A program made the translations under genes and the position numbers. From Rhodobacter sp. (GTDB taxonomy: Bacteria; Pseudomonadota; Alphaproteobacteria; Rhodobacterales; Rhodobacteraceae): a stretch of DNA of 64,000 bases. The notes beneath the pieces are model-generated. The model made no database searches, had not been told where the DNA came from, and saw only the letters and a list, made by a program, of their open reading frames with translations. Shown here one piece after another: positions 676-27,303 of the stretch (the first letter of the stretch is position 1; each line of letters opens with the position of its first letter). The stretch lies in NCBI GenBank assembly GCA_027484145.1, contig JAIXUH010000002.1, positions 868,001-932,000 of the forward strand, written 5' to 3'.

Positions 676-714
676 CTGCAAGCTGTCGAGATGCCGATGA
701 AAAGGAACGAAACC

Positions 715-2809: not shown

Positions 2810-2817
2810 CCCCCTGT

Positions 2818-4689: not shown

Positions 4690-4693
4690 CCCC

Positions 4694-7534: not shown

Positions 7535-7555
7535 GGCAGGCCACCTAGCGCAGGG

Positions 7556-7573
7556 ATGTCACAGGGCTGTGAC
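7556..7573 (+). promoter_or_regulatory. Putative Pho box between DUF1045 gene and phnM
   Basis: ATGTCAC (7556-7562), four bases, then CTGTGAC (7567-7573). The two heptamers resemble the PhoB half-site CTGTCAT (TGT.A core in both) and have the canonical 11-base period. The region also forms a GTCACA/TGTGAC inverted repeat, so another dimeric regulator is possible. It sits in the 95-base divergent region, 21 bases from the DUF1045 start and 56 from phnM. Confidence 0.45.
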
Positions 7574-7629
7574 GCCCTTGTGCCATCAGGCGCCTTTCCG
7601 GCCCTCGCCGCAAGACAGGACAGACAGGA

Positions 7630-8809: not shown

Positions 8810-9724
8810 CTATAATGGTTGAAATGACATGCGGCTGAACCGTTCAGCCGCGTGGAAAAACAGGTCGACCAGCGGGTTGCGTTCGTCGGTCAGGGCAAAC
8901 ACGGTTTCCTCGACCGGCGCGCCCATGCCGTCGACAGTGATCCGGCGCACCAGATCGTTGCGGTGCGACCCGTAGCGCCACATGAAGCCAACCCCCACCC
9001 CTGCGGCGACCGCCTCGAACACCGCATCGCGGGTATCGGCCACAAGCCGCGGATCGGGTGCCAGACCGGCAAGGCGAAAGGCGCGGTCTACCACCCGCTG
9101 CGTCGACGATCCGCGACTGCGAAAGATCAGCGCCGTCTCGGCAAGGCTGGGCAGGCTGACGCGCGGCTGTCCGGCAAAAGCAGACGAGGGCGAGACGATC
9201 GCCACCACCTCTTGGCGCAGAACCGCAAGGCGGCGGAACCGCGTGTCCCCCGGCACGTCGGGCAACACGCCCACATCGACATCACGACGCAGCACCGCCG
9301 CAAGAATCTCGGAATGCGAGCCGCTGCGCAGGTTGACCGACAACCCGCCATGCGCCGCCATGACCGAGGCGATGATCTCCATCCCCGGCATCGAATTGCC
9401 CAGCCCCACCCGCAGGCGCGCGCGCCCCGCCATGTCGCGGCGGGCCACGACTCGGGCGGCTTCACGCTCGGCATCCAGCACGCGTTCACCGATCTCGCAC
9501 AACTCCTGCCCGACAGGGGTCGGGATCAGGCGGCCTTGGGCACGGTCGAACAGGCGCAGGCCAAAGGCGGCCTCCATCTCGCGAATCTGCTGGGCGATGG
9601 CCGAGTGCGACAGCGAGAGACGCCGTGCCGCGGCGGCATAGGTGCCCTCTTCGGCAACCGCCGTCAGCGCCCTGAGGCGCGAGATCGTCAGCCCAAACGT
9701 GATGTCCGCAGGTAAAACCTTCAT
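8810..9724 (-). CDS. LysR-family transcriptional regulator
   Basis: A 304-residue LysR protein. The N-terminal helix-turn-helix is at about residues 15-75 (LRALTAVAEEGTYAAAARRLSLSHSAIAQQI), followed by a periplasmic-binding-like effector domain with the family pattern (LRVGLGNSMPGMEII, VGVLPDVPGDTRFRRLAVL). It diverges from the HAD phosphatase gene across a 164-base region that contains the palindrome TGTAAC-N6-GTTACA. The usual LysR arrangement makes the downstream phosphatase/isomerase/phosphoesterase genes and perhaps the transporter its targets. The effector is unknown. Its 3' end converges on phnM. Confidence 0.88.
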   Translation of the reverse strand: MKVLPADITFGLTISRLRALTAVAEEGTYAAAARRLSLSHSAIAQQIREMEAAFGLRLFDRAQGRLIPTPVGQELCEIGERVLDAEREAARVVARRDMAGRARLRVGLGNSMPGMEIIASVMAAHGGLSVNLRSGSHSEILAAVLRRDVDVGVLPDVPGDTRFRRLAVLRQEVVAIVSPSSAFAGQPRVSLPSLAETALIFRSRGSSTQRVVDRAFRLAGLAPDPRLVADTRDAVFEAVAAGVGVGFMWRYGSHRNDLVRRITVDGMGAPVEETVFALTDERNPLVDLFFHAAERFSRMSFQPL

Positions 9725-9888: not shown

Positions 9889-10665
9889 ATGCCAGACCCA
9901 ACGCCCGATCCTGTCGTGACGCGCCTCTCGCTGGGGGCGGCCTTGCCCCGGCTGGTGGCCGGACATCGGGCCATTCTGGCCGATCTGGATGGCAGCCTGA
10001 TCTCGGGAGATACCGTGCTGCCCGATGTCGAGGGCCTTTTCGCGCAGGCGGGTCTGCGGTTGTGGATCGTGTCGAACAATTCCAGCGATACGGCGATGTC
10101 CCTTTCCACGCGGCTGGCCGGTCACGGGCTGGCTATTCCGCCTGACCGTATTCTGTTGGCGGGCGAACAGACGCTGGTGCTGTTTGCCGAGAACCGGCCC
10201 GGCGCCCGCATCGCGCTTTATGCCAACCCCACGATCAAGACCGCCGCGCGCGCCTTGGGTCTGGTGATTGACCATACTCTGCCCGAGTTTGTCATTCTGG
10301 CCCGTGACCGTGCGTTCAGTTTGGCGGCGCTGACCGAACTGGCCCGCTTCATCCATCGCGGCGTGCCGGTCTGGATCACCAACCCCGACGCCAGCCACCC
10401 AGGCCCCGATGGCCTGCCAGTGCCCGATACCGGCGCGCTGTTTGCTGCCGTGCAGGCCATGGTGCCGGGCTGCCGCGCCAAGTCGCTGGGAAAGCCATCG
10501 CCCGACCTGCTGCACCTTGCGCTGAAGCGCGCCGGGGTGGCGCCGTCTCAGGCCATTTTTGTGGGCGACTCTCCGGCGACCGACGGGCTGGCCGCGGGGC
10601 GCGCGGGCGTGCCCTTTGTCTGCCTTTTGCCACCCGGCCCGGCCCGCGCGGCTGGGGCGGTCTGA
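9889..10665 (+). CDS. HAD-IIA (NagD-like) sugar-phosphatase-like hydrolase
   Basis: A 258-residue HAD hydrolase. Motif I is LADLDGSLISGDTVLP, where the usual DGT is DGS. Motif II is IVSNNSSDTAMSL. The large NagD-type cap follows, with the motif III lysine in LGKPSPDLL and motif IV in VGDSPATDGLAAGRAG. The family dephosphorylates small sugar or glycolate phosphates. AAGGAG is five bases before ATG 9889; an in-frame ATG at 9835 lacks a site. It is the first gene of the forward cluster that diverges from LysR, and the context suggests release of phosphate from a phosphomonoester produced by the neighbouring diesterases. Confidence 0.85.
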   Translation: MPDPTPDPVVTRLSLGAALPRLVAGHRAILADLDGSLISGDTVLPDVEGLFAQAGLRLWIVSNNSSDTAMSLSTRLAGHGLAIPPDRILLAGEQTLVLFAENRPGARIALYANPTIKTAARALGLVIDHTLPEFVILARDRAFSLAALTELARFIHRGVPVWITNPDASHPGPDGLPVPDTGALFAAVQAMVPGCRAKSLGKPSPDLLHLALKRAGVAPSQAIFVGDSPATDGLAAGRAGVPFVCLLPPGPARAAGAV

Positions 10666-10735
10666 TGCCCTTGCCGATCCGAACCTCTGCTCTTGGCAGA
10701 CTTACGCATTAAAAACCCCCGAAAGGAACTGACCG

Positions 10736-11551
10736 ATGACTTTGCCTGTTCTTGGCGCCGCCCTTGGCCTTGAAGACCTGCCCGCTCACGCCGCTTGGCT
10801 GCGCGAGGCGCCCCGCGATCTGGAACTGCAGAGTTTTGTCGATGCCGAGGTGCTGAATGGCGACTGGACCGCGCGCGCGGAGGAGGCGAAGCGCCTGCTG
10901 GACGGTCACGAAGGCCGCCTTGGCATTCATGGCCCGTTCTGGGGCTGGACGATTTCCAGCTATGACCCCGATGTGCGCGCCGTGGTGCGCAAGCGGATGG
11001 CGCAGGCGCTGGATGTTTGCGCGGCCATCGGCGGCACGCATGTCGTGATCCATTCACCCTTCACCACATGGGGCTACAATCACAAGGGCATGTATCCGGC
11101 CGATGTGGACCGCACGCTTTCGGCCGTGCGCGACACGATGCAGGCGGCACTTGACCGCGCCGAGGATATGGGCATGACCTTTGTGCTGGAAAACATCGAG
11201 GACATCGACCCGTCCGACCGCGCCAATCTGTGCGAGGCGCTTGGCTGGCAGGCTCTGGCCCTGTCGGTCGATACCGGCCACGCGCATTATGCCCATGGGT
11301 CCACGGGTGCACCGCCAGTGGACAGCTTCATCCGCGCGGCGGGCAACCGTCTGGGCCATGTGCACCTGCAGGATGCCGATGGCTATGCCGACCGGCACTG
11401 GCAGATCGGGCATGGCACCATCCTGTGGCATTCGGTGTTTGGCGCGCTTGCCGACATCACCAGTGCGCCGCGCCTGATCCTTGAACTGCGCGACAAGGCA
11501 GGGGTGATCCCGTCGGCGCAATACCTCAAGTCGCTGGGGCTGGCCGAATGA
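10736..11551 (+). CDS. Sugar phosphate isomerase/epimerase-like TIM-barrel protein
   Basis: A 271-residue AP-endonuclease-2/xylose-isomerase-type barrel. The expected metal ligands are visible in order: a glutamate in FVLENIEDI, histidines in ALSVDTGHAHYAHG and GHVHLQDADGYADRHW, and a glutamate in LILELRD near the C-terminus. The family isomerises or epimerises sugars and related polyols; the substrate cannot be assigned. AAAGGAACT precedes ATG 10736. It follows the HAD gene after 70 bases and overlaps the metallophosphoesterase gene by four bases. Confidence 0.85.
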   Translation: MTLPVLGAALGLEDLPAHAAWLREAPRDLELQSFVDAEVLNGDWTARAEEAKRLLDGHEGRLGIHGPFWGWTISSYDPDVRAVVRKRMAQALDVCAAIGGTHVVIHSPFTTWGYNHKGMYPADVDRTLSAVRDTMQAALDRAEDMGMTFVLENIEDIDPSDRANLCEALGWQALALSVDTGHAHYAHGSTGAPPVDSFIRAAGNRLGHVHLQDADGYADRHWQIGHGTILWHSVFGALADITSAPRLILELRDKAGVIPSAQYLKSLGLAE

Positions 11552-12348
11552 AGTTCATCGTCTTGTCTGACCTGCATCTGGGCCCGCCCGGAGAGCCGGT
11601 GAATGGCCTTGACACAGGCGCGCGTCTGGCCGCGGCGGTAGAAACCATCAACCGCGACCATTCCAACGCCGATTTCGTGCTGCTGGCCGGTGATCTGGCC
11701 GATCAGGGGCAAGAGGTCGCCTATCATGCCCTGCGCGACCTGCTGGCCCCACTGGTGCCGCCGGTGCACATCACCCTTGGCAACCATGATGACCGCAGTA
11801 CCTTTCTGTCGGTCTGGGGCACCGAGCGGGACGACCCGCAGGGCCGGGTGTCCGAGGTGATCGACAGGGGCGGCTACCGGGTGATCCTTCTGGACACGTC
11901 CGAGCCTGGGCTGGTGAGCGGTCGCCTGTGCGAAGGACGGCAGGCCTGGTTGGTGGAACGTCTGGTCGAGGCCGAGGACAAGCCGGTCATCGTGGTCATG
12001 CACCACCACGCCAACCGCCTGTCGCTGCCGGTGGATGCGATTGCGCTGGAAGACGGCCCGCGCTTTTCGCAGATTCTGGGCGCGCACCCCGATGTGAGGC
12101 AGGTCATCGCGGGGCATGTCCACATCCCCACGACGGGGGTCTGGCATGGCCTGCCGATGACCACGATTGCCGGCAGCCATTACAGCGTCAGCCCGCATTT
12201 GCCGGGCATGTCGGGCCGCCAGAAATGCCTTGAGGGCCCCGCCCAGATGGCGGTCGTCCTTGCCGATGATGAGGGCGTGACGGTCCATTTCCATGACTAT
12301 CTGGACCGGCACCTGACGCTTGCCCCCGGACTGTTCCGCCACGGCTGA
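11548..12348 (+). CDS. GpdQ/CpdA-like metallophosphoesterase
   Basis: A 266-residue calcineurin-like enzyme with the full dimetal set: SDLHLG, LLAGDLAD, LGNHDD, MHHHANR and GHVHIP. This order, and the LPMTTIAGSHYSV insertion, match class III phosphodiesterases (GpdQ, CpdA), which hydrolyse glycerophosphodiesters, cyclic nucleotides and some phosphonate esters. No signal peptide is seen, so it acts in the cytoplasm on imported substrate. It is translationally coupled to the upstream isomerase and followed by a likely terminator. The next genes encode a Ugp-like importer, which supports a diester substrate. Confidence 0.9.
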   Translation: MKFIVLSDLHLGPPGEPVNGLDTGARLAAAVETINRDHSNADFVLLAGDLADQGQEVAYHALRDLLAPLVPPVHITLGNHDDRSTFLSVWGTERDDPQGRVSEVIDRGGYRVILLDTSEPGLVSGRLCEGRQAWLVERLVEAEDKPVIVVMHHHANRLSLPVDAIALEDGPRFSQILGAHPDVRQVIAGHVHIPTTGVWHGLPMTTIAGSHYSVSPHLPGMSGRQKCLEGPAQMAVVLADDEGVTVHFHDYLDRHLTLAPGLFRHG

Positions 12349-12368
12349 ACGGCGCGGGAAAAACACGG

Positions 12369-12399
12369 GCGCACCGCGGAGGGCAACTTCCGCGGGCGC
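12369..12399 (+). terminator. Probable terminator after the metallophosphoesterase gene
   Basis: The stem CCGCGGA/TCCGCGG (12374-12380 and 12389-12395) is extended by GCGC/GCGC around one bulged A, followed by TTTCGTTT. The T tract is interrupted, so partial readthrough into the transporter genes is possible. Confidence 0.5.
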
Positions 12400-12462
12400 T
12401 TTCGTTTCGCTGTTTAAACATATGTTTTTGCTTCATAAAACTGTGTTTATCGTTTCGTTAAC

Positions 12463-12482
12463 CTGTCATTGTTTCCTGTCAT
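12463..12482 (+). promoter_or_regulatory. Paired CTGTCAT repeats upstream of ugpB-like gene
   Basis: Two perfect CTGTCAT heptamers (12463-12469 and 12476-12482) are separated by six bases. The heptamer is the classical PhoB half-site, but the period here is 13 rather than 11. Upstream in the same 188-base region are two TCGTTTCG copies (12402-12409, 12450-12457) and the palindrome AAACATATGTTT (12416-12427). Control by phosphate and a second regulator is inferred. Confidence 0.4.
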
Positions 12483-12536
12483 AGGCCGCTCCATGCCGCG
12501 CCGACGTTGCGGCATCCACCCTTTACGGAGACAGGG

Positions 12537-13865
12537 ATGATGAACAACAAACTCGCGACCGCAGCGCTTGCGCTGTTGGCGACAGCCGGGGCCGCTTCGG
12601 CGGAGAAGGCAAAGTTCGAATACTGGTACGGCCTGACGGGCGATCTGGGTGAAGTGGTTGCCGAAACCTGCAACCGTTTCAACGCCAGCCAAGACCAGTA
12701 TGAGGCTGTTTGCGTCGGTCAGGACGGCTATGAAAAGGCCGTGCAGAACACCATCGCCGCCTTCCGCGCCCAAAAGCACCCGACGCTGCTGCAGTCGTTC
12801 GACGCCGGCACCGCCGACCTGATGCTCTCGGGCGAATTCTACCCGGTGACCAAGCTGATGGCCGACACCGGCGTGAACGTCGACTGGGCCGACTACTTCC
12901 CCGGCATCGCCAACTATTACTCGTCCAAGTCGGGCGAATTCTTCTCGATGCCTTGGAACTCTTCGACCCCGGTCTACTATTTCAACAAGGACATCTTCGC
13001 CAAGGCCGGGATAACCGAAGCTCCGCTGACCTGGGAAGGCATGGAAGCCGCCCTTGTGAAGGTCAAGGAGTCGGGTGCCGCCTGCGGTCTGGCCTATGCG
13101 CCCTCGTCGTGGATCGACCTCGAGCAGTTCTCGATGGTTCACAACGTTCCGGTCGCCTCGAACAACAACGGCTATGACGGTCTGGACACTGAACTGCTGT
13201 TCAACACCACGCTGCACGTCAAGCACATGGAAAACATCCAGCGCTGGATCGAAGGCGGCTTTGCCACGATCCGCACGCAGGCCGCTGGCAAAACCGCACG
13301 CGACAGCTTTGTCGAAGGCGAATGCGCCGTGTTCTTCTCTTCGATCGCCGACCACAACACGATCCACAAGCTGAAGCCGGCCTTTGGCTGGGACGTTCAG
13401 ATCATCCCGACCTATGAAGGCGTCGAGCGCAAGAATTCGGTCGTGGGCGGTGCTTCGCTCTGGGTTCTGTCGGGCAAGACCGAAGACGAATACAAGGCCG
13501 CTGCTGCCTATCTGGCCTTCCTTGCCACCAAGCCGGAACAGCAGTTCCTGCTGGAAAACTCGGGCTACATTCCGGTCACCAAGTCGACCTATGACGCGCT
13601 GCTGGCCGAAGGCTTCTACGCCAAAGAGCCCTTCATCAACCGCGATATCGCGATGAAGTCGCTGACCTACAGCGAGCCGACCGAACTGACCCGTGGCATC
13701 CGTCTGGGTGGCATGATCCAGATCCGCGCCGAATGGACCGCCGAGGTTGAGGCTGCGCTTGCTGGTCAGAAGACGATGAAAGAGGCCCTCGACACCGCAA
13801 CGACCCGCGGCAACGAGATCCTGACCCGCTTTGCCAAGACCTATCCGGGCAAAGCTTTCCCCTGA
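12537..13865 (+). CDS. UgpB-like ABC transporter substrate-binding protein
   Basis: A 442-residue periplasmic binding protein with a clear signal peptide (MMNNKLATAALALLATAGAASA, then EKAKF). The body resembles the glycerol-3-phosphate binder UgpB: FEYWYGLTGDLGEVVAETCNRFNASQ, DGYEKAVQNTIAAFRAQKHPTLLQ, SSTPVYYFNKDIF. The usual UgpB WHSM start is replaced by WYGLTG, so the ligand may not be glycerol 3-phosphate itself. Starts at 12537 and 12540 are both possible behind GGAGACAGGG. Codon choice is strikingly uniform (TTC, AAG, GTC, ACC), unlike the neighbours, which suggests high expression. Confidence 0.88.
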   Translation: MMNNKLATAALALLATAGAASAEKAKFEYWYGLTGDLGEVVAETCNRFNASQDQYEAVCVGQDGYEKAVQNTIAAFRAQKHPTLLQSFDAGTADLMLSGEFYPVTKLMADTGVNVDWADYFPGIANYYSSKSGEFFSMPWNSSTPVYYFNKDIFAKAGITEAPLTWEGMEAALVKVKESGAACGLAYAPSSWIDLEQFSMVHNVPVASNNNGYDGLDTELLFNTTLHVKHMENIQRWIEGGFATIRTQAAGKTARDSFVEGECAVFFSSIADHNTIHKLKPAFGWDVQIIPTYEGVERKNSVVGGASLWVLSGKTEDEYKAAAAYLAFLATKPEQQFLLENSGYIPVTKSTYDALLAEGFYAKEPFINRDIAMKSLTYSEPTELTRGIRLGGMIQIRAEWTAEVEAALAGQKTMKEALDTATTRGNEILTRFAKTYPGKAFP

Positions 13866-13885
13866 TCCGGCCTGAACAGACCAAA

Positions 13886-13911
13886 GGGCGCGGCGGTTCT
13901 CTGCCGCGCCC
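13886..13911 (+). other. Intercistronic stem-loop between ugpB-like and ugpA-like genes
   Basis: A perfect nine-base stem, GGGCGCGGC (13886-13894) and GCCGCGCCC (13903-13911), with an eight-base loop and no T tract after it. Such hairpins behind binding-protein genes commonly protect the upstream message or attenuate readthrough, giving more binding protein than permease. Confidence 0.6.
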
Positions 13912-13932
13912 ATCCCCATGCCGGAGAATGCC

Positions 13933-14814
13933 ATGCGCCGCGCCTATTTCAAGACAAGCTGGATTGCCTTCGCCCTGTTGGCCCCGCAACTGCTGATCAT
14001 TTTCGTGTTCTTCTACTGGCCGTCGGCGCAGGCGCTGTACTGGGCCTTCACGCTGGAACAGCCATGGGGCGGCGGCAACACATGGGTCGGGTTCGAGAAT
14101 TTCGCCAAGGTGCTGTCTGACCCCTATTACTGGAGTTCGGTGCGCGTGTCGGTGATCTATGCACTGGCCACCACGGTTCTGGCGATGGCCATGGCGCTGA
14201 CGCTGGCCGTGTTCGTGGACCGCCAACTTTCGGGCTACAGCGCCTATCGCGTGGCCTTCATCTGGCCCTATGCCGTGGCAGCCCCCGCCGTTGGCCTTGC
14301 CTTTCAGTTCGTGTTCAATCCTGGCGCCGGCATCTTTTCCTACATCAACGCCGTCAGCCCCGGCATGTGGAACCCGTCGCAATACCCCTCGCAGGCGATC
14401 CTTTCCATCGTCATCGCAGGCGCATGGAAACAGGTGGCCTATAGCTTCATCTTCTTTCTGGCCGCCCTGCAGTCGATCCCCCGCAGCCTGACCGAGGCGG
14501 CGGCCATGGATGGCGCGCGCCCCTTGCGCCGTGTGCTGGACCTGCAATTGCCGCTGCTGACGCCCACCTTCTTTTTCCTGCTGGTCATCAACATCACCGA
14601 CAGCTTCACCGACAGCTTCGGCATTGTCGACACGCTAACAGGCGGCGGGCCGTTCCGCGCCACCGACCTTCTGGTCTACAAGATCTACGCCGATGGCTTC
14701 CGGGGCTTTGACTACTCGGGCGCTGCCGCCCAATCCATCATCCTGATGTGCCTTGTCATGGCGCTGACCTTTGTTCAGTTCCGCTATGTCGAGCGGCGCG
14801 TGCATTACACCTGA
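13933..14814 (+). CDS. UgpA-like ABC transporter permease
   Basis: A 293-residue inner-membrane permease of the MalF/UgpA type with about six transmembrane helices, starting with WIAFALLAPQLLIIFVFFYWPSAQ. The EAA loop that docks the ATPase is EAAAMDGARPLRRVLDLQLPLL. The late GGGPFRATDLLVYKIY segment is typical of UgpA. ATG 13933 is preferred over 13918 because GGAGA sits upstream of it. It is separated from the binding-protein gene by a stem-loop, and nine bases separate its stop from the next permease gene. Confidence 0.88.
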   Translation: MRRAYFKTSWIAFALLAPQLLIIFVFFYWPSAQALYWAFTLEQPWGGGNTWVGFENFAKVLSDPYYWSSVRVSVIYALATTVLAMAMALTLAVFVDRQLSGYSAYRVAFIWPYAVAAPAVGLAFQFVFNPGAGIFSYINAVSPGMWNPSQYPSQAILSIVIAGAWKQVAYSFIFFLAALQSIPRSLTEAAAMDGARPLRRVLDLQLPLLTPTFFFLLVINITDSFTDSFGIVDTLTGGGPFRATDLLVYKIYADGFRGFDYSGAAAQSIILMCLVMALTFVQFRYVERRVHYT

Positions 14815-14823
14815 GGTGACGCC

Positions 14824-15753
14824 ATGATTGAACGCACGCCCATTCTGAACATCGTCACCCATCTTATCCTGATCTTTGGTCTGGTGGTGATCCTGACCCC
14901 GATCTGGCTGGCCTTTGTGGCCGCCACCCATACGCTTCAGGCCGTCAACTCCCACCCGATCGAGATGTGGCCGGGCGATCAGTTGCTGATCAACCTGCGC
15001 GAGGCTTGGGCGCAATCAGACTTCGGCCCCAAGTTCGTGAATACCCTGATCGTGTCCACCGGCGTTGTGCTGGGCAAGATCACGCTGGCCTGCATCACCG
15101 CCTTCAGCCTTGTGTTCTTCAACTATCGCGGGCGGATCGTGATCTTCTGGATGATCTTCATCACCCTGATGCTGCCGCTTGAGGTGCGGATCGTGCCCAC
15201 CTATGCGGTTGCTGCCAATGCGCTGTCGCCGTTTCAGACCATCATGGATGCCATCGGCCTGACCAGCCTGATCAACATGATCTCTGGCATCGAGGTCGCG
15301 CTGGAATGGAACCTGCTCAATTCCTACACCGGGTTGATCCTGCCGCTGGTGGCGACGGCCACCGGCACATTCCTCTATCGCCAGTTCTTCCTGACCATTC
15401 CGGATGAGTTGGTCGAGGCCGCGCGGATGGATGGCGCAGGCCCCTTGCGGTTCTTGTGGGATGTCCTGATCCCGCTGTCGAAAACCAACATCGCGGCACT
15501 GGCCACCATCATGTTCGTCTATGCGTGGAACCAGTATCTGTGGCCCCTTCTGGTGATCACCGACCGCGCGAACTACGGCATGGTCGTGGTGCAGCTGTCC
15601 GACCTTGTGCCCGATCAGCTGACCACCGGCGGCGGCACACCAACCTGGCACCTTGCGATGGCGGCCACGCTGGTTGTCATGCTGCCCCCCATCGCCATCG
15701 TCATCTTCATGCAGCGCTGGTTCGTGCGCGGCCTGATCAACACCGACAAGTGA
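14824..15753 (+). CDS. UgpE-like ABC transporter permease
   Basis: A 309-residue permease of the MalG/UgpE type. TM1 is [22 protein letters not shown], the extracytoplasmic loop holds [23 protein letters not shown], and the EAA loop is [22 protein letters not shown], followed by [22 protein letters not shown] as in UgpE. It pairs with the upstream permease to form the membrane channel. GAGGTGA precedes ATG 14824. Only seven bases lie between its stop and the ATPase gene. Confidence 0.9.
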
Positions 15754-15760
15754 GGCAATC

Positions 15761-16870
15761 ATGGCCGAAATCAGCATTCGCGACATCTCGAAAACCTATG
15801 GCAAGAACACGATCATGCAAGGCGTCAACCTTGAGATCCGCCAGAAGGAATTCGTGGTCATCCTTGGCCCGTCGGGCTGTGGCAAATCCACCCTGCTGCG
15901 GATGATCGCAGGGCTGGAGGATATCACCAAGGGTGAGATTTCCATTGATGGCACCGTGGTGAACGCGCTGGAACCGCGCCAGCGGGGTTGCGCCATGGTG
16001 TTCCAGAACTATGCGCTTTACCCGCACATGACGGTGGCCGAAAACATCGGCTATGCGCTGAAGGTGGCGGGCGTACCCAAGGCCGCCCGGCTGGAGCGGG
16101 TGGCGGGCGTGGCAAAATCGGTGGGTCTGGGCGAGTTTCTGGACCGCAAGCCCGGCCAGCTTTCGGGCGGGCAGCGGCAGCGGGTCGCCATGGCCCGCGC
16201 CATCATCCGCGAGCCGAAGGTGTTTTTGTTCGACGAACCGCTGTCGAACCTTGATGCGAAACTCCGCGTTCAGATGCGCCACGAAATCCGTCGCATCCAC
16301 AATCAGATCGGGGCCACCAGCGTGTTCGTCACGCACGACCAGCACGAAGGCATGACCTTGGCCGACCGACTGGTGGTGATGAACAAGGGCACTATCGAAC
16401 AGGTCGGGACCCCGGAAGAGATTTATGAGCGTCCCGCTTCGGTCTATGTGGCGGGCTTCATCGGCAGCCCGGCGATGAACATGTTGCCCGGTCGCGTCGA
16501 TGCCAGCCGTGGCGCGGTGCTGTTGGACAATGGCCAGTCGGTGCCCCTTCCCGCGCAACAGGCGCGTGCGGCCAATGGCAATCTGGTGCAGGTCGGTCTG
16601 CGCCCGGAACAGTTGTTCCTTGCCTCCCCCGCTTCCGCCCAGTTGACCGCAACCTATGTGTTCCAAGAGGAATTGGGGTCGGGCCGCGTGTATCATCTGC
16701 AGATCGAAGATATCCCGCTGTGCGTGGTCAGCACCGAAAAGCGCCAGATGACCGAGGGCGACACGGTGGGTCTTTCCTTTGCGGCCGACGCGGTGCATCT
16801 GTTTGATGCCAAATCCGGGCGCCGTGTGGCGCGCGGCACGGCGGACCGGGTGCTTGAGGTGACGGCATGA
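15761..16870 (+). CDS. UgpC-like ABC transporter ATP-binding protein
   Basis: A 369-residue carbohydrate-type ATPase of the CUT1 class. Walker A is GPSGCGKST, the Q-loop is [12 protein letters not shown], the signature is LSGGQRQR, Walker B is [13 protein letters not shown] and the switch is [16 protein letters not shown]. The C-terminal half is the OB-fold regulatory domain ([24 protein letters not shown]). It energises the binding-protein-dependent import of the cluster. It overlaps the following phosphoesterase gene by four bases, so transport and hydrolysis are probably translated together. Confidence 0.9.
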
Positions 16871-17595
16871 CAGCACAGCCCGCCCATCTGCGCGAGGCCA
16901 GCCTGCGCTATCTGACAGGTGCTGGCAGCGCCCTGCCCCGCCCGTCGGCGGTGGGGGAAAAGTTCACCGAAACAGGGGCCGTGCTGTCTTTTGCCGGCAA
17001 CACCTTTATCTGCCACATTCCGCCCGATGGGGCCGCCCATGCCGCGCTGACCCATGCGCAGGCGCGGCTGCAGGCGGGGCCATTGGCGGGGGCCTTTACG
17101 TTTCTGCCACCGTCCAGCTTTCACATGACAGTGTTCGAAGGCATCTGCGACGCGCACCGCCATGATGACCGCTGGCCGCAGGACGTGGACCCGGCGCTTT
17201 CGGTTGATGCCGTCTCGGCGCAGTTCCTGCCACAGGTGCAAGGCCTGCCCCTGCCGGTGGCTAGCATGGTGCGCGCGCATGGCATCTTTGGCGGCTTTTC
17301 CGTGTCGCTGACCGGGGCAACACCTGCCGAAGATGCGGCGTTGCGCGCAGCCCGCGATACGTTGGCCGCAGCCACTGGCATTCACCGCGCCAACCATGAC
17401 GCCTATGAGTTCCACATCACCCTTGCCTATCTGATCCGCTGGCTGACGGCGGATGAGGCGGCGCAGGTCATGGACCTTGCCGCAGATGTGCATGCAGACC
17501 TGCTGCTGGCCGCGCCGGGCATTGCATTGGCGGGGGTCGAGTTCTGCCGTTTTGACGACATGCACGCCTTTCCCCTGCTGGAACGGCTGTCCTGA
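16867..17595 (+). CDS. DUF1868-like 2H phosphoesterase
   Basis: A 242-residue protein with two HxT motifs of the 2H superfamily: SFHMTVFEG (about residue 82) and EFHITLAYL (about residue 182). The layout matches DUF1868, a family related to cyclic and RNA-type phosphodiesterases. No signal peptide is present, so it is cytoplasmic. Its start overlaps the ugpC-like stop, tying it to the importer. It is the second 2H enzyme in the window and is not similar in sequence to the DUF1045 protein at 6854-7534 beyond the two motifs. Confidence 0.78.
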
Positions 17596-17666
17596 ACGGC
17601 TTGGCAACCGCGCGCAAGTGGTGTTGAAAGGCCCGGACAACCGAACGGGGGCAACAGGGGATGGCC

Positions 17667-18728
17667 ATGATGACGGGCAATGCCACGCAGATCGTCGACC
17701 GCCTGACAGATGTGGCGCCGGGTGTGCGTGCGGCGTGGCACGATGGCCCGCAAGGCATGGCCGCCTTCCGCGCGGCCCTTGCCGCCGTGCCTGCCCTGCA
17801 CCAGATCGAGGTGGGCGGCCCGGCACCGCAGGCTGGTGGGGCAACGGGGCAGTTGCGGGTGGTGGCGTGGAACGTGGAACGCTTGCGCCACATCGACCCG
17901 ATTTCCGAAACCCTTGTGCGGCTGGCCCCTGATGTCTGCCTGTTGTCGGAAATCGACAAGGGCATGGCGCGCAGCGGCAATTCGCACCGCACCGAAGATC
18001 TGGCCCAACGGCTGGGTCAGGGCTATGCCTATGGCGTCGAGTTCGTGGAACTGGGCCGCGGCAATGATGAAGAACGACGCGCGGCGGGTAATGTGGAAAA
18101 CAGCCACGGCTTTCACGGCAACGCCATCCTGTCGCGTCTTGCCTTGCAACGCCCGGCCCTGTTCCGACTGGAAACTGATGGCGCGTGGTGGGGCCATGAT
18201 CGCGGCCAACCGCGCGTGGGCGGGCGCATGGCCATGGCAGGTCAGGTCATGCTGGACGGTCAGGCGGTCACGGTGGTGACCGTGCATCTGGAAAGCCATT
18301 CCGGCCCTCAGATGCGGCTGGATCAGATGGTCCGGTTGGCCGATCTGGTCGATGCCTATGCCCCCGGTGCGCCTGTGGTCATTGGTGGTGATCTGAACAC
18401 ATCAACCTATGAATGGCCGCGCACAGGCCGCGATATGGAAGATGCGGCCGACCCCACCCGCCGCCTGCGCCCACCCGAGTTTGAGCCTTTGTTCGACCAC
18501 ATGCAGGCGCTCGGCTATGACTGGCAGTCGTGCAACCTGCCGCAGACTGCCACCCAACGCCTGTGGGAACCGGACCCGGCCCGCCGCCTTGGCCAGATCG
18601 ACTGGTTCCTGACGCGCGGCCTTGTGGCCAATGCGCCGCAGGTCATTCCCGCGACATATGCCGATGGCAGCACCGCATCGGACCACGAGGCGATCATGGT
18701 CACCCTGACCCTGCGGCAACAGCGCTAG
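17667..18728 (+). CDS. Endonuclease/exonuclease/phosphatase-fold phosphodiesterase
   Basis: A protein of about 353 residues with the EEP motif set: VVAWNVERL, CLLSEIDKGM, FHGNAILSRL, VTVHLESH, VIGGDLNTSTYEWP, LGQIDWFL and ASDHEAIM. These mark a Mg-dependent phosphodiesterase/phosphatase of the DNase I-like fold, with nucleic-acid, inositol-phosphate and phospholipid hydrolases as relatives. No export signal is present. Starts at 17661, 17667 and 17670 are in frame; CAGGGG best fits 17667. It follows the 2H gene after about 70 bases and converges on the AbrB gene, sharing a CTAG at the stops. Confidence 0.85.
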   Translation: MMTGNATQIVDRLTDVAPGVRAAWHDGPQGMAAFRAALAAVPALHQIEVGGPAPQAGGATGQLRVVAWNVERLRHIDPISETLVRLAPDVCLLSEIDKGMARSGNSHRTEDLAQRLGQGYAYGVEFVELGRGNDEERRAAGNVENSHGFHGNAILSRLALQRPALFRLETDGAWWGHDRGQPRVGGRMAMAGQVMLDGQAVTVVTVHLESHSGPQMRLDQMVRLADLVDAYAPGAPVVIGGDLNTSTYEWPRTGRDMEDAADPTRRLRPPEFEPLFDHMQALGYDWQSCNLPQTATQRLWEPDPARRLGQIDWFLTRGLVANAPQVIPATYADGSTASDHEAIMVTLTLRQQR

Positions 18729-19768
18729 CTCCGGCCGGAAAGCACTCTGTCCATGATGGAATAAAGGACGGGCGCCAGCACGATTACCAGCAGGATGCGC
18801 ACCACATGGTGCAGCGCGACAAAGGCCACGTCCGCATGTATGGCAAGGGCGATCAGGCCCATTTCCGTCAGGCCCCCCGGTGCTAGTGCCAGCAGCCCCT
18901 GATCGGTTCCCGCCCCGATCAGGACATGGATCACCCAGGCAAACCCCAGGGCCAAAGCCAGCGTCAAGAGCGTGGCCCCAAGGCTGAGCACCGAGGCGCG
19001 GGCCAGTTCGCGCACCCCGATGCCCAAGAACCGGCACCCCAGCACCGTACCAAGGATCACCTGCGCCGCATTGACCAGCAAGGTGGGCGGCACGCTTTCG
19101 GTAAAGCCCACCAGATGCAGCACCGCCGACAGCGCCATCGGCCCCAGAAAGGTGGGCGCGGGGAATTTCAGCGCCTTGCCCGCCACGCTGCCCAGAACCG
19201 CGCAGGCCAGCATGACCATCGCATCATACAGGGTCAGCGGATGGGCGGGGCCCGCCGGGGCGGTGCCCACATCATAGCCTTCGACCACGCGAAACCAGAC
19301 CGCGATCAGGGCGATCGTCACCACAATCCGCAGCGAATGGGCCAGCACAAGGGCATGGACATTCGCCCCCTTGGATTCGCCGATTTCGATCATCTCGGTC
19401 AGACCGCCGGGCATGCCTGCGAAATAGGCCGTGGTCCGGTCGAACCGCCCCACAACAATGTAGAACGGCACCACCACCGCCCCGACGGCCAAAAGATAGA
19501 TCAGCAACAGGCTGAGTGAGCCAAGCCACGCCGCCGCCTGCCCCACGACATCCGGCGTAAAGCGCGACCCCAGCAAGACCCCGATCACCGCCACAACCGC
19601 AGGCCGGATCCGCACCGGTGCAAGAACCGGCAGGCGCGCAACAGATGCCACCATGCTGGCCGTCAGCGCACCCAGCATCCATGGCAGCGGCAGCGACAGC
19701 AGCGCAAACAGGAAACCGCCCGCCGCCCCAATGGCAAGTCCCAGTGCGACGCGGGGCAAATTCGGCAC
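18725..19768 (-). CDS. AbrB-family membrane protein
   Basis: A hydrophobic protein of roughly 347 residues with two internally similar halves, each with a PGGLTEM segment (AGMPGGLTEMIEIGES and LAPGGLTEMGLIALAIH). This is the hallmark of the AbrB (ammonia-monooxygenase-like, DUF-type) membrane family; its substrate is not established. The frame stays open to an ATG at 19981, but the first 70 or so residues there are not family-like. A GTG at 19768 gives the usual length, leaving a 236-base promoter region before phnM2. The start is therefore uncertain. Confidence 0.72.
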   Translation of the reverse strand: MPNLPRVALGLAIGAAGGFLFALLSLPLPWMLGALTASMVASVARLPVLAPVRIRPAVVAVIGVLLGSRFTPDVVGQAAAWLGSLSLLLIYLLAVGAVVVPFYIVVGRFDRTTAYFAGMPGGLTEMIEIGESKGANVHALVLAHSLRIVVTIALIAVWFRVVEGYDVGTAPAGPAHPLTLYDAMVMLACAVLGSVAGKALKFPAPTFLGPMALSAVLHLVGFTESVPPTLLVNAAQVILGTVLGCRFLGIGVRELARASVLSLGATLLTLALALGFAWVIHVLIGAGTDQGLLALAPGGLTEMGLIALAIHADVAFVALHHVVRILLVIVLAPVLYSIMDRVLSGRS

Positions 19769-20004
19769 AGGCTTGGGCTTTCTGCAAACGTCCTTGGCCT
19801 TCAGTGTTTTCGAACCGTGCGGCAATGTCCAGCCATCGGCCCATACCAAAGGCAAAGAAATCGGTGCGGACTCCCCAGAGCTTGTGTTTTGTTCCCCGAC
19901 AATCACCGTGTTTTGCCATCCGCTTGCCAAAGCGTTACAAAAGCGATGCGCCCCTGTCATGCAGCCGCGATAATCCGGCAACCGATTGTTCGAAGGAGTC
20001 TTTC

Positions 20005-21285
20005 ATGCCCGATGACGGCGCCCCCAGCCTTGTGCGTGACCTGTCGCTTTCGGGTCCAGAGCCCTTTGTGATCGAAGGGGCCAGTGTCCTGTTGCCCGAC
20101 CGTGCTGAACAGATGGCCGTGCGTGTGGAAGGCGGGGTCATCACCGGGCTGGACATGGCGGTTGATGGCGCGCGGCGGGTGCCGGCCCCCGGCATGATCC
20201 TTGCGCCAGCCATGGTCGACATTCACGGCGATGCCTTCGAACGCCAGTTGATGCCGCGCCCCGGCGTGATGCTGCCGATGGAAGCCGCCTTGCTGGAGAC
20301 CGACCGCCAGCTTGCCGCCAATGGGATTGCGACCGCCTATCACGCCCTGACGCTCAGCTGGGAGCCGGGCCTGCGGTCGGTCGCCACCGGGTGGGAGATG
20401 TTTCGCGCATTGTCCGCCCTCGCTCCGCGCCTGACGGTCGAGCATCGGCTGCAATTGCGGTGGGAAACGTTCTGCCACGAGGCCATTCCGCTGATCGAGG
20501 CCGCGTTGTCCGGCCCGGTCAGGCCTTCAATCGCCTTCAATGACCACACTTCGATGGCCCTGCTGCACCCCGACACCCCCTTGCAGGATCGCCCCTTTGA
20601 CCATGATCCCGCGTTTCCCGTGGTGGACATGGACAGCGCGGCCTTTCTGGAAAAGATGGATGCACGGGCCAAACGGTCGCACACCACACCAGCAGCCTTT
20701 GTCGCGCAGATCCGCGAGATCTGGGCGCGTCGGCCATCCGTTCCCGGTGTGATTGCCGATGTTGCGGCGCTTGGGCGGGCAGCGGGCGTGCCGATGCTCA
20801 GCCATGATGACAGCCGCCCCGAAACCCGCCGCTTTTACCGTGATCTGGGGGCGCGCACCTCGGAGTTTCCAATGAACATGGCGACAGCGCAGGCGGCGCG
20901 CGATGCGGGCGACGCCATCATTTTCGGGGCCCCGAACGCGGCGCGCGGCGGCAGCCATCTGGGCTCGCCGGGGGCGGCTGACATGATCCGCGCCGGGCTG
21001 TGCGACATTCTGGCGTCGGATTACTATTACCCTGCCATGCTGGGTGCCGTCGCGCGACTTTTGTCAGATGGCGTTGGCACGCTGGCACAGTTGTGGCCGC
21101 TGATCGCGGCCAACCCGGCACGGGCCAGCGGCCTGCACGACCGCGGCACGATTGCGCCGGGGTTGCGGGCCGATCTGGTGCTGCTGGACTGGCCCACAGG
21201 CGCCACACCCGTGGTGCGCCAGACATGGGTGCAGGGGCGCGCGGCCTATGGGGCCATCGCCTCAGGCCCGCAAAGCCTTGGGTAA
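20005..21285 (+). CDS. Second PhnM-like amidohydrolase
   Basis: A 426-residue protein of the PhnM family. It has MVDIHGDAFERQLMPRPGV (metal-binding HxD), IAFNDHTSMALLHP, PMLSHDDSRPETRR, FGAPNAARGGSHLG and ILASDYYYPAML. It shares the architecture of the phnM at 7630 but is clearly divergent and longer, with an insertion around residues 190-235. PhnM enzymes cleave diphosphate from alpha-D-ribose 1-phosphonate 5-triphosphate. This copy could be a paralogue for other phosphonate adducts or a related hydrolase. AAGGAG precedes ATG 20005. A lone CTGTCAT lies at 19954-19960. Confidence 0.82.
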   Translation: MPDDGAPSLVRDLSLSGPEPFVIEGASVLLPDRAEQMAVRVEGGVITGLDMAVDGARRVPAPGMILAPAMVDIHGDAFERQLMPRPGVMLPMEAALLETDRQLAANGIATAYHALTLSWEPGLRSVATGWEMFRALSALAPRLTVEHRLQLRWETFCHEAIPLIEAALSGPVRPSIAFNDHTSMALLHPDTPLQDRPFDHDPAFPVVDMDSAAFLEKMDARAKRSHTTPAAFVAQIREIWARRPSVPGVIADVAALGRAAGVPMLSHDDSRPETRRFYRDLGARTSEFPMNMATAQAARDAGDAIIFGAPNAARGGSHLGSPGAADMIRAGLCDILASDYYYPAMLGAVARLLSDGVGTLAQLWPLIAANPARASGLHDRGTIAPGLRADLVLLDWPTGATPVVRQTWVQGRAAYGAIASGPQSLG

Positions 21286-22041
21286 GGCACGCAAGCTGGC
21301 CAGCACCGCAAGACCGGCCACCCGCAGGATGCGCGGCGATTGTTTTGCCGGGGCAAGCGCAAAGAGCTTGTGCAGCACCACCGCAACACTGGCCCCCAAC
21401 ACCGCCCCGGCCAGCACATCGCTGAGCCAATGCGCGCCGATCAGCGCCCGGCTGAGCGCGACCCAGACCCCGATGGCAAGGAACGCAGGCCCCAGACGCG
21501 GCAGCACCAGCATCAGCGCCACCGCAAGGGCGATGGCGGTCGTCGCATGACCTGACGGAAAGCTGGCCCAGTTCGCCTCGATCGCCAAGGGGCGAAAGGC
21601 CAGCACCGTGCCGGGGTCGGGCACCAAGGGACGCGCGCGCCCGATCAGGTTCTTCAGCACCAGCGCCGCGCCGCCACTGACCAGAACCGTCGTCAGCACA
21701 TAAAGGCCCATCCGCCGTGCCTGCCACAGGGTCGCCTGCCGTGGCCCCTTGGTCCGCCCCGCGGCCCAGCCACACAGGGCCGCGAACAGCCCGAAGGTCA
21801 CAATGGCCCAGCCCGAATTGCCAAGCGCGGTAAAGGTCGACAGCAGCGTATTGAGCGAGGGGTCCAGCGCCCGCGCCCATGACCGTAGCGGGGCATCCAG
21901 CCCGACCACCACTGTCAGCAAGGCCGCCCCGCACAGCACCAGTTGCACCGCCCCAGGCTGCCCCCTGCCCCAGACCCACAGCCGCTGGTACCATGGGGCC
22001 TTGGCTGACTCTGGCAGCACGAACAACGGCGCGTGTTTCAA
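21262..22041 (-). CDS. PAP2-family membrane phosphatase
   Basis: A 259-residue integral membrane protein with the three PAP2 motifs: KNLIGRARP, FPSGH (in WASFPSGHATTAIALAVAL) and SRALIGAHWLSDVLAG. The family removes phosphate from lipid phosphates such as undecaprenyl diphosphate or lipid A. It ends a block of envelope genes on this strand. Its end overlaps the phnM2 end by 24 bases in convergent orientation, and its start overlaps the glycosyltransferase stop by four bases. Confidence 0.88.
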   Translation of the reverse strand: MKHAPLFVLPESAKAPWYQRLWVWGRGQPGAVQLVLCGAALLTVVVGLDAPLRSWARALDPSLNTLLSTFTALGNSGWAIVTFGLFAALCGWAAGRTKGPRQATLWQARRMGLYVLTTVLVSGGAALVLKNLIGRARPLVPDPGTVLAFRPLAIEANWASFPSGHATTAIALAVALMLVLPRLGPAFLAIGVWVALSRALIGAHWLSDVLAGAVLGASVAVVLHKLFALAPAKQSPRILRVAGLAVLASLRALPKALRA

Positions 22042-23720
22042 GGCGTGCCTCCCGCAATCAGGATATCAAGGTCAACCCACCGCCCCGCCCCAAGGGCAAA
22101 GCCCGAGACCTGCGCCACCTTGCGCAGCCCCGCAGGCGGCGGCGGCGTCGATGTGTTGCGTATCACCACCGTGCAAAGGTTGCGTGTCAGCCCGATGTCC
22201 AACGCCGCCGCAGCGGGCAAAAGCACCGTGTCGCGCCCCGCGCGCCAGACCAGCGACGGCTCGGTATAGCCCCAGCCGATGATTGCGGGCTTTGCGCAGC
22301 CTTGTCGCGCTGCCGCCGTGGTGGCCGCGGCCATGGCCGCTTCGGTCGGCCACAAGACGGGTTGCCGGGCAAGGCCCATGACAAGCCCGCCATGCACACA
22401 GGCCGCACAGGCCACCAGCGACAGCACGGCGGCATGGCGCGGGCCCCGCCGCATGGACATCAGCGCCACGCCCCCGGCCACGCCGCCTATCCCCAAGCCC
22501 GCCGCAACGGGCAAGACCGACGCCATCGGCTCGCCAAGCCACAACAGCACAAGCGCAGGCAGCGCCCCGATCATCAGCGCAACTGCAGCCGCCAGCAGCG
22601 ACAGGCCCGCCACCCCACCGGCCCCCGCCAGAAAGGCGGGCACCACCAGCAAGGCAAGCGCGGGATAGACCGGCAGCGTGTAGTGGATCAGTTTTGTCGG
22701 CACCGCCTCGAACACCAGCCATGTCGGCACCAGCCAGCACAGCAGAAAGACCGACGCGGCGCTGCGGCGGTTGCGCCAGATGGCAGGCAGCGACGCGGCA
22801 AGCAGCACCGACACCGGCCAGAACGTGACCCACAGCGCCAAAAGATAGGTGCCCGGCGGGGCGCCCTTGCCCTCTTGCCCGGCGGCCGCCTTGGCCATCA
22901 GGTCGGCCCCGACCGAGGCCTGCCAGAACGCCCCTCCGCTTTTGACCGTGATCGCAATCAGCCACGGCAGGACGATGGCCAGACCGACCGCAATGGCCGG
23001 CCCATGCGCCAAGGGGCGCAGCCACCCGGCCTGCCGGTGCCAAAGGCACAGGGCCAGCACCGTCAGGCCCACAACCATGGGCCCGATCGGCCCCTTGATC
23101 AGCACCGACAAACCCAAGGCTGACCAGAACAGCCACACCACCCATCGCTTTGGCGTGCCCTCCATCCCTACTTTCGCCGCGTAAACCCGCGCAAGGGCCA
23201 GTTGCGCCGCCAGAATGGTGGCCAGCAGCACGGCATCGGTCTTGGCAATCCGCGCCTCGCCCTGCAGCACAAAGCAGGCCGCAAAGGCAAGCGCGGCCAT
23301 CGTCGCTGGCCCTGCCCCCACCCACGGTGTGCCCAGACCTGCCACCAAAAGCACCGCCGCCACCGCCCCCAGCAGCGATGGCAACCGCCAGACCCACAAT
23401 GGCGCCTCGGCCCCCTGCCCAAAGGTGACGGCTGACAGCGATTGCAACCAGTAAATGCCGACCGGCTTTTTGTGCCGGGCCTCATCCTGAAAGCGGATGT
23501 CGATCAGATCACCCGATTGCACCATCTGACGGCTGGCCTGTACGAACCGCGCCTCGTCGCGGTCCATGACTGGCAATTGCGCCAGCCCCGGCAGCATCAT
23601 CGCAAGCGCCAGCCCCATAAGCAGCGTCAGACGCAGCGGCCACGCCGCCCCGCACAGCCGCCGGACGCCTGCATTCAGCGCGGTCAGCGCGGCCACAGCA
23701 CCAGTTCCACCTGACCCCAA
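22038..23720 (-). CDS. ArnT/PMT-like membrane glycosyltransferase
   Basis: A 560-residue polytopic membrane protein. The catalytic loop LPVMDRDEARFVQASRQMVQ corresponds to the DE-R/Q motif of ArnT and protein mannosyltransferases, and HKKPVGIYWLQSL is the second conserved loop. Such enzymes move a sugar from undecaprenyl phosphate to lipid A or another acceptor on the periplasmic side. Its N-terminus overlaps the upstream PAP2 gene by 37 bases, and its C-terminus overlaps the next PAP2 by four. The sugar is not known. Confidence 0.87.
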   Translation of the reverse strand: MGSGGTGAVAALTALNAGVRRLCGAAWPLRLTLLMGLALAMMLPGLAQLPVMDRDEARFVQASRQMVQSGDLIDIRFQDEARHKKPVGIYWLQSLSAVTFGQGAEAPLWVWRLPSLLGAVAAVLLVAGLGTPWVGAGPATMAALAFAACFVLQGEARIAKTDAVLLATILAAQLALARVYAAKVGMEGTPKRWVVWLFWSALGLSVLIKGPIGPMVVGLTVLALCLWHRQAGWLRPLAHGPAIAVGLAIVLPWLIAITVKSGGAFWQASVGADLMAKAAAGQEGKGAPPGTYLLALWVTFWPVSVLLAASLPAIWRNRRSAASVFLLCWLVPTWLVFEAVPTKLIHYTLPVYPALALLVVPAFLAGAGGVAGLSLLAAAVALMIGALPALVLLWLGEPMASVLPVAAGLGIGGVAGGVALMSMRRGPRHAAVLSLVACAACVHGGLVMGLARQPVLWPTEAAMAAATTAAARQGCAKPAIIGWGYTEPSLVWRAGRDTVLLPAAAALDIGLTRNLCTVVIRNTSTPPPPAGLRKVAQVSGFALGAGRWVDLDILIAGGTP

Positions 23721-27099: not shown

Positions 27100-27303
27100 G
27101 TGGCGGGGCCTGATCCATCCCGGCGACACGCCGGTTGGTGCAGGCCTAGTCCCGAAAGATCACCGTTGCGTGACGCATGGGCGACAGTTCCGCATCATAG
27201 GCCGCCCTGTTGTGAAACGGCAAAGCTTTGCCGATGCGGCGGGCAGCGGGTCTGCCACCGGCCCCGATCACGAAAAATGGCGTCACCGCAGTGCCAAAGT
27301 GCA

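Follow-up and report, generated by a model that had tools for sequence, protein, structure and literature searches.

The stretch of DNA considered here, which we call the window (G000:C23:868001-932000, 64 kb, from a host genome of 4.97 Mb in 39 contigs), raises the question of why an importer resembling the glycerol 3-phosphate (G3P) importer UgpBAEC should be encoded together with several predicted phosphoesterases next to an operon for carbon-phosphorus (C-P) lyase, and whether what is imported ends up as a substrate of that enzyme. Besides the importer, the genes in question encode a protein of the AP-endonuclease-2 fold (TIM), a class III metallophosphoesterase (MPE), a DUF1868 protein, an endonuclease/exonuclease/phosphatase (EEP)-fold protein, a HAD-IIA phosphatase and a paralogue of PhnM (PhnM2). 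Genes were called from open reading frames (ORFs), codon statistics with a codon model, and domain scans with Pfam and NCBIfam models and their cut-offs; ORFs, codon statistics and domain scans agree that all genes named in the first-pass annotation of this DNA are present, in the order and at the positions given there (Table 1). The explanation that we consider best, and to which we give about an even chance of being right, is that the locus encodes a Pho-regulated importer and hydrolases for glycerol-based phosphorus esters that would work alongside C-P lyase. It is built on features of sequence, namely the gene set and its recurrence, the changed pocket of the binding protein, the endonuclease IV-like ligands of TIM and the Pho-box-like sites; the locus may represent a candidate route for the use of phosphorus esters.

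The conserved unit and its importer

Recurrence was surveyed in a sample of 390 genomes of the order Rhodobacterales, with thresholds of E <= 1e-25 for TIM, 1e-120 for UgpB and 1e-70 for PhnM2. TIM is present in 76 of these genomes, at 80 places, UgpB in six, and DUF1868 in 26, mostly in other settings. Stretches were fetched as sets of 20, 20 and a DUF1868-guided set (42 TIM genes, that of the window included) and then around 80 named TIM loci, and their genes were called and clustered. The unit that recurs is TIM-MPE-UgpBAEC, sometimes followed by DUF1868, which stands behind UgpC in the window, L062 (the genome of L139), L066, L114 and L115; L071 has UgpBAEC-DUF1868 without TIM or MPE. In the window the TIM and MPE genes overlap by 4 bases, as do those of UgpC and DUF1868. 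As a guide gene, DUF1868 led nowhere: among the 25 loci that it retrieved besides the window, the whole TIM-MPE-UgpBAEC unit was found only in L062 and L066, L059 carries TIM with a phnM-like gene, L071 carries UgpBAEC, and L063, L065, L067, L069 and L070 are among those with less similar importer genes only. Since phnG, phnH, phnI and phnJ have no match in any of these 25 loci, they double as a control.

A fixed module of eight genes was considered and rejected. At E 1e-8, tblastn detects the HAD gene in none of the other stretches fetched, and the EEP gene was found in one of 21 relatives carrying TIM, there on a different contig from TIM (it also lies near Ugp genes in L075). The HAD, EEP and AbrB-family genes look like local additions; the last, on the minus strand, separates the EEP gene from that of PhnM2. 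The synteny with phn operons that the first-pass annotation proposed to check thus holds for TIM-MPE-UgpBAEC(-DUF1868), with phn genes nearby in six of 21 loci, and fails for HAD and EEP, which are not conserved with the unit.

The six among the 21 distinct fetched loci with both TIM and UgpB are the window, L114, L115, L116, L118 and L128; automatic labels give five, and L114 was added by hand, its phnE and transferase genes being outside the label set. In L115 (a metagenome-assembled genome of Gemmobacter nectariphilus) and L116, phnK-phnL-phnM (in L116 from phnJ) is followed by methyltransferase and PhnM2 genes on the other strand, and the array continues as phnC-phnD-phnE-phnE-(d156 in L115)-hexapeptide transferase-TIM-MPE-UgpBAEC, with DUF1868 in L115. 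The contig of L114 begins within phnE and shows phnE-phnE-transferase-TIM, the right part of the same array, and in all three loci TIM begins 21-32 bases past the transferase gene. In L118 a transferase gene and phnH lie on the opposite strand behind UgpC, with the sole phnJ match outside the fetched stretch, and in L128 phnC is divergent from TIM, where the contig ends. The phn genes near the unit are of two kinds, window-like in the window and in L128 (PhnC, judged by eye) and type II, like those on contig C27 of the host, in L114-L116 and L118. The proposed link would have been in difficulty had the cluster never co-occurred with C-P lyase genes elsewhere; the unit lies near phn genes in five further loci, and additional genomes have TIM paired with a PhnM paralogue close to C-P lyase genes. 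A phnJ match, in some cases partial, is present in each of the 21 genomes behind L114-L131, L139, L147 and L193, which are mostly close relatives, and in 247 of the 390 genomes of the order.

The importer is recognizably of the Ugp type and differs from the G3P importer in its binding pocket. UgpC and UgpE score over their NCBIfam cut-offs and UgpA and UgpB under theirs, so that the G3P importer models are not matched as a whole. The pocket for glycerol 1-phosphate (G1P) and G3P of Phaeobacter UgpB is formed by Tyr64, Ser143, Ser266, Tyr342, Gly303, Arg393, Glu88, Trp188 and Trp191 (PMC12718374; this and the other papers named below are cited from excerpts of their text). We aligned the Phaeobacter and E. 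coli proteins with 23 family rows, two of which are second fetches of the same genomes; the offset of the Phaeobacter numbering was set by fit, and only one offset matched five or more of the published residues, matching all nine. Tyr64, Ser143, Ser266, Gly303, Arg393 and Trp191 are kept in all 23 family members and Tyr342 in 22 (not in L071), while Glu88 is replaced by Asp in all 23 and Trp188 by Pro in 22 and by Gly in L071. The UgpB of the window thus keeps seven of the nine pocket residues, those that bind phosphate included, and has Asp89 for the Glu and Pro189 for the clamp Trp. A glycerophosphocholine-binding protein has Asp at the Glu88 position, and the Trp pair is described as having arisen with the narrowing to G1P and G3P (PMC12718374). 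The Asp and the loss of one of the two Trp residues might indicate a glycerophosphodiester-binding UgpB of the M. tuberculosis type, whose residues were taken from the text of that paper and not from an alignment. With the phosphate ligands kept, these two replacements suggest that the ligand is of the glycerol-phospho kind and bulkier than G3P. The changes fit phosphate and phosphonate ligands alike and do not discriminate between them. The locus resembles E. coli ugpBAECQ in the importer type (UgpC and UgpE over cut-off) and in that the gene set includes a diesterase; it differs in the scores of UgpA and UgpB below cut-off, in the replaced Glu88 and Trp188 positions, and in having a metallophosphoesterase, TIM and a 2H protein, and no GDPD, as candidate esterases nearby. 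UgpB has four matches in the host genome, of which only its own exceeds 30% identity; the others reach 23-29% over part of the length.

The C-P lyase operon upstream of the HAD gene contains phnG, H, I, J, K, L, M and N, its phnM being canonical (TIGR02318 416.8 bits, over 390.55). The first-pass annotation noted correctly that no phnCDE lies within the 64 kb, and suggested on that ground that the Ugp-like importer may be the phosphonate-ester transporter. This ground does not hold: phnC (861834-862655), phnD (862697-863608) and phnE1 with phnE2 (863679-865884) lie on C23, 2-6 kb beyond the left edge of the window, and C27 carries a second C-P lyase together with a phnCDE set of its own. The idea of a missing phosphonate transporter was therefore rejected, and the Ugp-like importer is an extra one, no stand-in for phnCDE; in L115 and L116, phnCDEE and Ugp genes stand side by side. 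Just left of the window edge there are also a hexapeptide transferase gene and a third PhnM-like gene (L017:16611-17783, C23:866611-867783, minus strand), very divergent, between the phnCDE-transferase set and phnF.

The TIM-barrel protein, its partners and the other hydrolases

Nine residues of TIM (His65, His106, Glu152, Asp179, His182, His210, Asp219, His221 and Glu250) are invariant in 38 of 38 sequences. In an hhalign comparison with E. coli endonuclease IV (Nfo; probability 84.9, E 6e-6), eight of them fall on zinc-ligand positions, including the D-R-H motif, and the ninth pair, His65 of TIM and His69 of Nfo, was matched by eye only. The ligands of the three zinc ions of Nfo we take to be His69, 109, 182, 216 and 231, Asp179 and 229, and Glu145 and 261, and on this assumption TIM possesses the endonuclease IV ligand set. 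Its closest solved sequence, TTHB071, keeps the D-R-H motif, which is absent from the aligned epimerase 3vnk. TIM scores under the cut-offs of the endonuclease IV family (28.3 vs 244 bits) and of CbiR (39.4 vs 105). With its AlphaFold model (mean pLDDT 94.3), Foldseek ranks TTHB071 first, then many sugar epimerases (D-psicose/tagatose) and, lower, an endonuclease IV; the fold alone is therefore not decisive. The first-pass annotation had called TIM an isomerase; with the endonuclease IV ligand set invariant and the motif absent from 3vnk, TIM is more likely a predicted metal-dependent phosphodiesterase. A precedent for a small-molecule phosphodiesterase in the AP-endonuclease-2 superfamily is CbiR, which acts in cobamide remodelling (PMC7733943). 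TIM shares this superfamily and conserved metal ligands with CbiR and endonuclease IV, and differs from CbiR in that no cobamide gene was identified among its neighbours, though no search was aimed at cobamide genes.

The tie to C-P lyase that reaches beyond the Ugp unit is the pairing of TIM with PhnM paralogues. PhnM2 stays below the canonical TIGR02318 cut-off (282.7 vs 390.55 bits), and in a tree with long branches for L017_19 and E. coli it groups with proteins of L115, L116, L193, L085, L109, L112 and L113 in a clade separate from the canonical phnM; a search of solved structures (E to 1e-5) gave no match. Among the 29 genomes with PhnM2, TIM lies within 10 kb in 13, elsewhere in five and is absent from 11, with about 0.03 expected within 10 kb by chance, a check that did not start from TIM. 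TIM adjoins PhnM2 in L109 and L112 (with one gene between in L113), a type II phnM in L085 and L193, and a phnM-like gene (38-39% to the phnM of the window) in L086, L089, L093, L095, L096 and L105. The paired genes overlap by 1-4 bases in L085, L093, L095, L096, L109 and L112, and C-P lyase core genes accompany the pair in L093, L095, L096, L105, L112, L113 and L193. At least 17 of the 80 TIM places are within 20 kb of phnJ, and phnJ is found in 68 of the 76 TIM genomes against 179 of the 314 others (Fisher p 2.6e-8, kinship ignored). TIM also occurs in Dpp-type importer operons with GDPD-like and HAD-like genes (L076, L077 and L080-L084 by clustering; in L082 the GDPD and HAD were confirmed by hidden Markov models); these operons seem to solve a comparable problem in parallel.

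Several minor observations concern the surroundings of these genes. Class I methyltransferase genes, of cluster d138 (L109, L112, L113 and L019) and of cluster d154 (L085, L115, L116 and L193), adjoin PhnM2 in two arrangements. In L109, L112 and L113 the methyltransferase beside PhnM2 is accompanied by a PhnD-like binding protein and PhnC/PhnE-like genes, and the host genome carries a transporter-methyltransferase set of this type on C27, without PhnM2. Some type II phn operons (L115:8542-9363, L019:18375-19193) contain a gene for a transglutaminase-like protein that separates phnE2 from the hexapeptide transferase gene. Two phn clusters look degenerate: in L109:3051-5166 phnJ matches in two pieces next to phnF, with the other core genes absent there, and in L085:6590-9608 the stretch from phnG to phnL lacks phnH to phnK.

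MPE scores 200.8 bits with the SpdA (2',3'-cyclic nucleotide phosphodiesterase) model, under its cut-off of 400; its nearest solved structures are Rv0805 and 2zo9/2dxl/3d03, the latter three of which we take to be GpdQ. The DUF1868 protein, whose nearest structure is Atu0111 (2fsq), has two H-x-T motifs, at residues 86 and 183; among 28 members, H86, T88 and H183 reach a conservation of 90% or more, and T185 stays below this. Counting the DUF1045 enzyme encoded within the C-P lyase operon, the first-pass annotation saw four unrelated diesterase folds here; DUF1045 and DUF1868 are both 2H enzymes and so are not unrelated. For the EEP protein, a search of solved structures (E to 0.1) gave no match. 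A PhnP-like role has been proposed for RcsF (PMC3840354), which we read as the DUF1045 protein.

Regulation and competing explanations

Sites matching a Pho box at 11 or more of 14 consensus positions were counted within 150 bases upstream of genes. In the window they precede phnG/phnF (588), ugpB (12452) and PhnM2 (19954). Across the fetched loci such a site lies upstream of ugpB in 9/23, of TIM in 13/120, of phnG in 3/5 and of phnF in 3/9 cases, the background being 2.2% of 2318 genes; none precedes the operon-internal genes ugpA (0/23), MPE (0/21) and phnI (0/9), and the frequencies for PhnM2 (1/8) and DUF1868 (2/27) are not significant. In Phaeobacter MED193, the Ugp genes, C-P lyase genes with DUF1045, and a set of an unnamed phosphodiesterase and a "sugar" importer are reported to be raised on phosphorus limitation, mostly in dependence on PhoB (PMC10132767). 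The last set, MED193_11288-11308, is induced by phosphorus starvation with its importer called a "sugar" ABC importer, for which the excerpted text names no substrate, and it may be likened to MPE-UgpBAEC by the spacing of its locus tags, which suggests the order phosphodiesterase, binding protein, two genes and ATPase (PMC10132767).

The best supported reading of these data is an import-and-hydrolyse unit for glycerophospho esters that is under Pho control and tied to C-P lyase through TIM. TIM-MPE-UgpBAEC-DUF1868 would then be a phosphate-starvation operon that imports glycerol-based phosphorus esters larger than G3P, diesters presumably being bound by UgpB, and the P-O-C bonds of these esters would be cut in the cytoplasm, probably by TIM and MPE. 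TIM, the partner of PhnM paralogues near C-P lyase genes, would free phosphonates from esters for C-P lyase, and phosphate diesters would yield phosphomonoesters for phosphatases. The operon would act alongside C-P lyase, next to which it is kept in part of its range. The feeding of phosphonate esters into C-P lyase is plausible; the tie to C-P lyase may be a shared substrate (phosphonate esters) or shared regulation only, and the data do not separate phosphonate esters from phosphate diesters.

Several observations weigh against this reading. No phn gene lies within about 10 kb in the fetched stretch of 15 of the 21 loci with TIM and UgpB, some of whose contigs are short; TIM is missing from the 11 PhnM2 genomes mentioned above, phnJ from eight of the 76 TIM genomes, and all co-occurrence statistics ignore the kinship of the genomes. 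The TIM-PhnM pairs of L086 and L089 stand with phnCDEE and lack phnG-J within 20 kb, and in the stretch read the phn cluster is incomplete in L085 (phnH-K) and in L109 (most core genes). In a TIM tree of 71 rows, 25 fall outside phn, Ugp and Dpp contexts, 16 have Ugp, 12 Dpp, 12 phn, five phn with Ugp and one Dpp with phn; the tree was thinned, and most rhizobial rows of the context-less kind were left out. Across L132-L192, TIM stands beside UgpBAEC only in L147 and near phnG, H, I or J in none. In many rhizobia (L140-L146, L148, L150-L153 and other Rhizobium loci) TIM lies between leuD-like and leuB-like genes, named by eye, and these contexts gave no functional hint. Many sugar epimerases are among the nearest folds of TIM, and the neighbourhood could reflect regulation alone, because C-P lyase and Ugp are both phosphorus-regulated in a relative (PMC10132767).

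The strongest alternative is a real, if lesser, possibility: the Ugp-like operon would take up ordinary phosphate diesters such as glycerophosphocholine with no metabolic link to C-P lyase, and the adjacency would result from the Pho regulon and from travelling together. The Pho-box-like sites before phnG, ugpB and PhnM2, the joint response of the three MED193 gene sets (PMC10132767) and the 15 loci without phn genes all agree with it, but it leaves unexplained why TIM-PhnM pairs, several of them overlapping, stand near phn genes where no such Ugp importer was seen, and why the association involves phn genes of two types.

At the other extreme stands a dedicated entry of esters into the C-P lyase pathway, in which UgpB would import glyceryl (or similar) phosphonate esters, TIM would hydrolyse phosphonate monoesters inside the cell as a new enzyme with the fold of endonuclease IV, and PhnM2 would be a PhnM variant tuned to the freed or still-esterified phosphonate. 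We regard this as rather unlikely; if true, phosphonolipid head groups or polymer-derived phosphonate esters would be directly usable as a phosphorus source. We consider it improbable that TIM is a component of the C-P lyase pathway proper, replacing PhnP, say, as a 5-phosphoribosyl 1,2-cyclic phosphate hydrolase, with the Ugp adjacency being secondary. Such a role would suit its endonuclease IV-like ligands and the gene order in L193 and L085, in both of which TIM comes directly after a type II phnM and phnN and DUF1045 have no match in the fetched stretch (phnP was not searched for), but TIM coexists with DUF1045 and phnN in L093, L095, L096 and L105, the L085 cluster itself is without phnH-K in the stretch read, and there are TIM genes that stand, away from C-P lyase genes, with importers and GDPD-like or MPE genes, as well as TIM genes in the eight genomes without phnJ. 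Least probable of all is a role of TIM as an isomerase or epimerase of sugars, working on the alcohol released from the ester. Its Foldseek neighbours and shared Pfam family speak for such a role; against it, the D-R-H motif, which is invariant, and additional His ligands correspond to those of endonuclease IV, the motif is absent from 3vnk, and the epimerase models give at most 25.4 bits against cut-offs of 300-305.

Part of the picture sketched in our preferred reading is already known: earlier work noted a second phnM and a 2H enzyme in clusters of this type (PMC3840354). The Rhodobacterales C-P lyase cluster B3TF_MPn_2 shares with the locus a second phnM-like gene, a second phnE, a hexapeptide transferase and the 2H phosphoesterase RcsF; its description, in the excerpted text, mentions neither a TIM-barrel enzyme nor a Ugp importer nor a metallophosphoesterase, and the word "isomerase" does not appear there (PMC3840354). 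In the literature searched, partly as excerpts, we found no description of the TIM-PhnM pairing or of the Ugp-MPE-TIM unit, nor any paper joining DUF1868 with phosphonate or phnM with xylose isomerase and C-P lyase. For access to ester-bound phosphonates in dissolved organic matter, alkaline phosphatase-like enzymes have been postulated, and a PhoD-like enzyme and a phosphonate monoester hydrolase have been pointed to (PMC5649143). The TIM-PhnM-paralogue pair and an importer with an altered glycerol-phosphate pocket bear on how bacteria reach such phosphonates, and a candidate function is offered for TIM, an enzyme family common in the order.

Gene map and neighbouring features

Table 1. Features of the locus, in window coordinates
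Feature	Position	Strand	Evidence or remark
Pho-box-like site	588-605	+	11/14 positions; between phnF and phnG
C-P lyase operon	691-8772	+	phnG, H, I, J, K, corA-like, phnL, N, M
phnG	691-1152	+	
phnH	1149-1727	+	
phnI	1727-2809	+	
phnJ	3020-3889	+	
phnK	3913-4689	+	
corA-like	4694-5644	+	
phnL	5662-6345	+	
phnN	6342-6878	+	
DUF1045 2H phosphoesterase	6854-7534	-	TIGR03223 252.2 bits, over 248.95; PF06299
phnM	7630-8772	+	
LysR-type regulator	8810-9724	-	between phnM and HAD gene; TIGR03339 156.2 bits, under 341.1
HAD-IIA (NagD-like) phosphatase	9889-10665	+	PF13344/PF00702 over cut-off; TIGR01460 74.7 bits, under 100.15
TIM (AP-endonuclease-2 fold)	10736-11551	+	PF01261, 110 bits
MPE (class III, GpdQ/Rv0805-like)	11548-12348	+	PF00149
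Pho-box-like site	12452-12469	+	11/14 positions; 76 bases before ugpB
UgpB-type binding protein	12537-13865	+	UgpB model 342 bits, under 411
UgpA-type permease	13918-14814	+	290.6 bits, under 335
UgpE-type permease	14824-15753	+	301.2 bits, over 297
UgpC-type ATPase	15761-16870	+	502.4 bits, over 432
DUF1868 2H phosphoesterase	16867-17595	+	PF08975, 98.4 bits
EEP-fold protein	17661-18728	+	PF03372, 43.8 bits
AbrB-family membrane protein	18725 to ~19885	-	PF05145; start uncertain, 19768 by codon-model caller
Pho-box-like site	19954-19971	+	11/14 positions; before PhnM2 gene
PhnM2	~20005-21285	+	start maybe 20065; NF011987 357.2 bits, over 253

The best model of the LysR-type regulator is that of the aminoethylphosphonate-associated LysR proteins, with a score below its cut-off. 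Within the C-P lyase operon, a CorA-type Mg2+ transporter gene occupies the gap between phnK and phnL. Beyond PhnM2, the minus strand of 21262-27129 carries two PAP2-type phosphatase, two PMT-type glycosyltransferase and one family 2 glycosyltransferase genes, a set that resembles lipid modification clusters.

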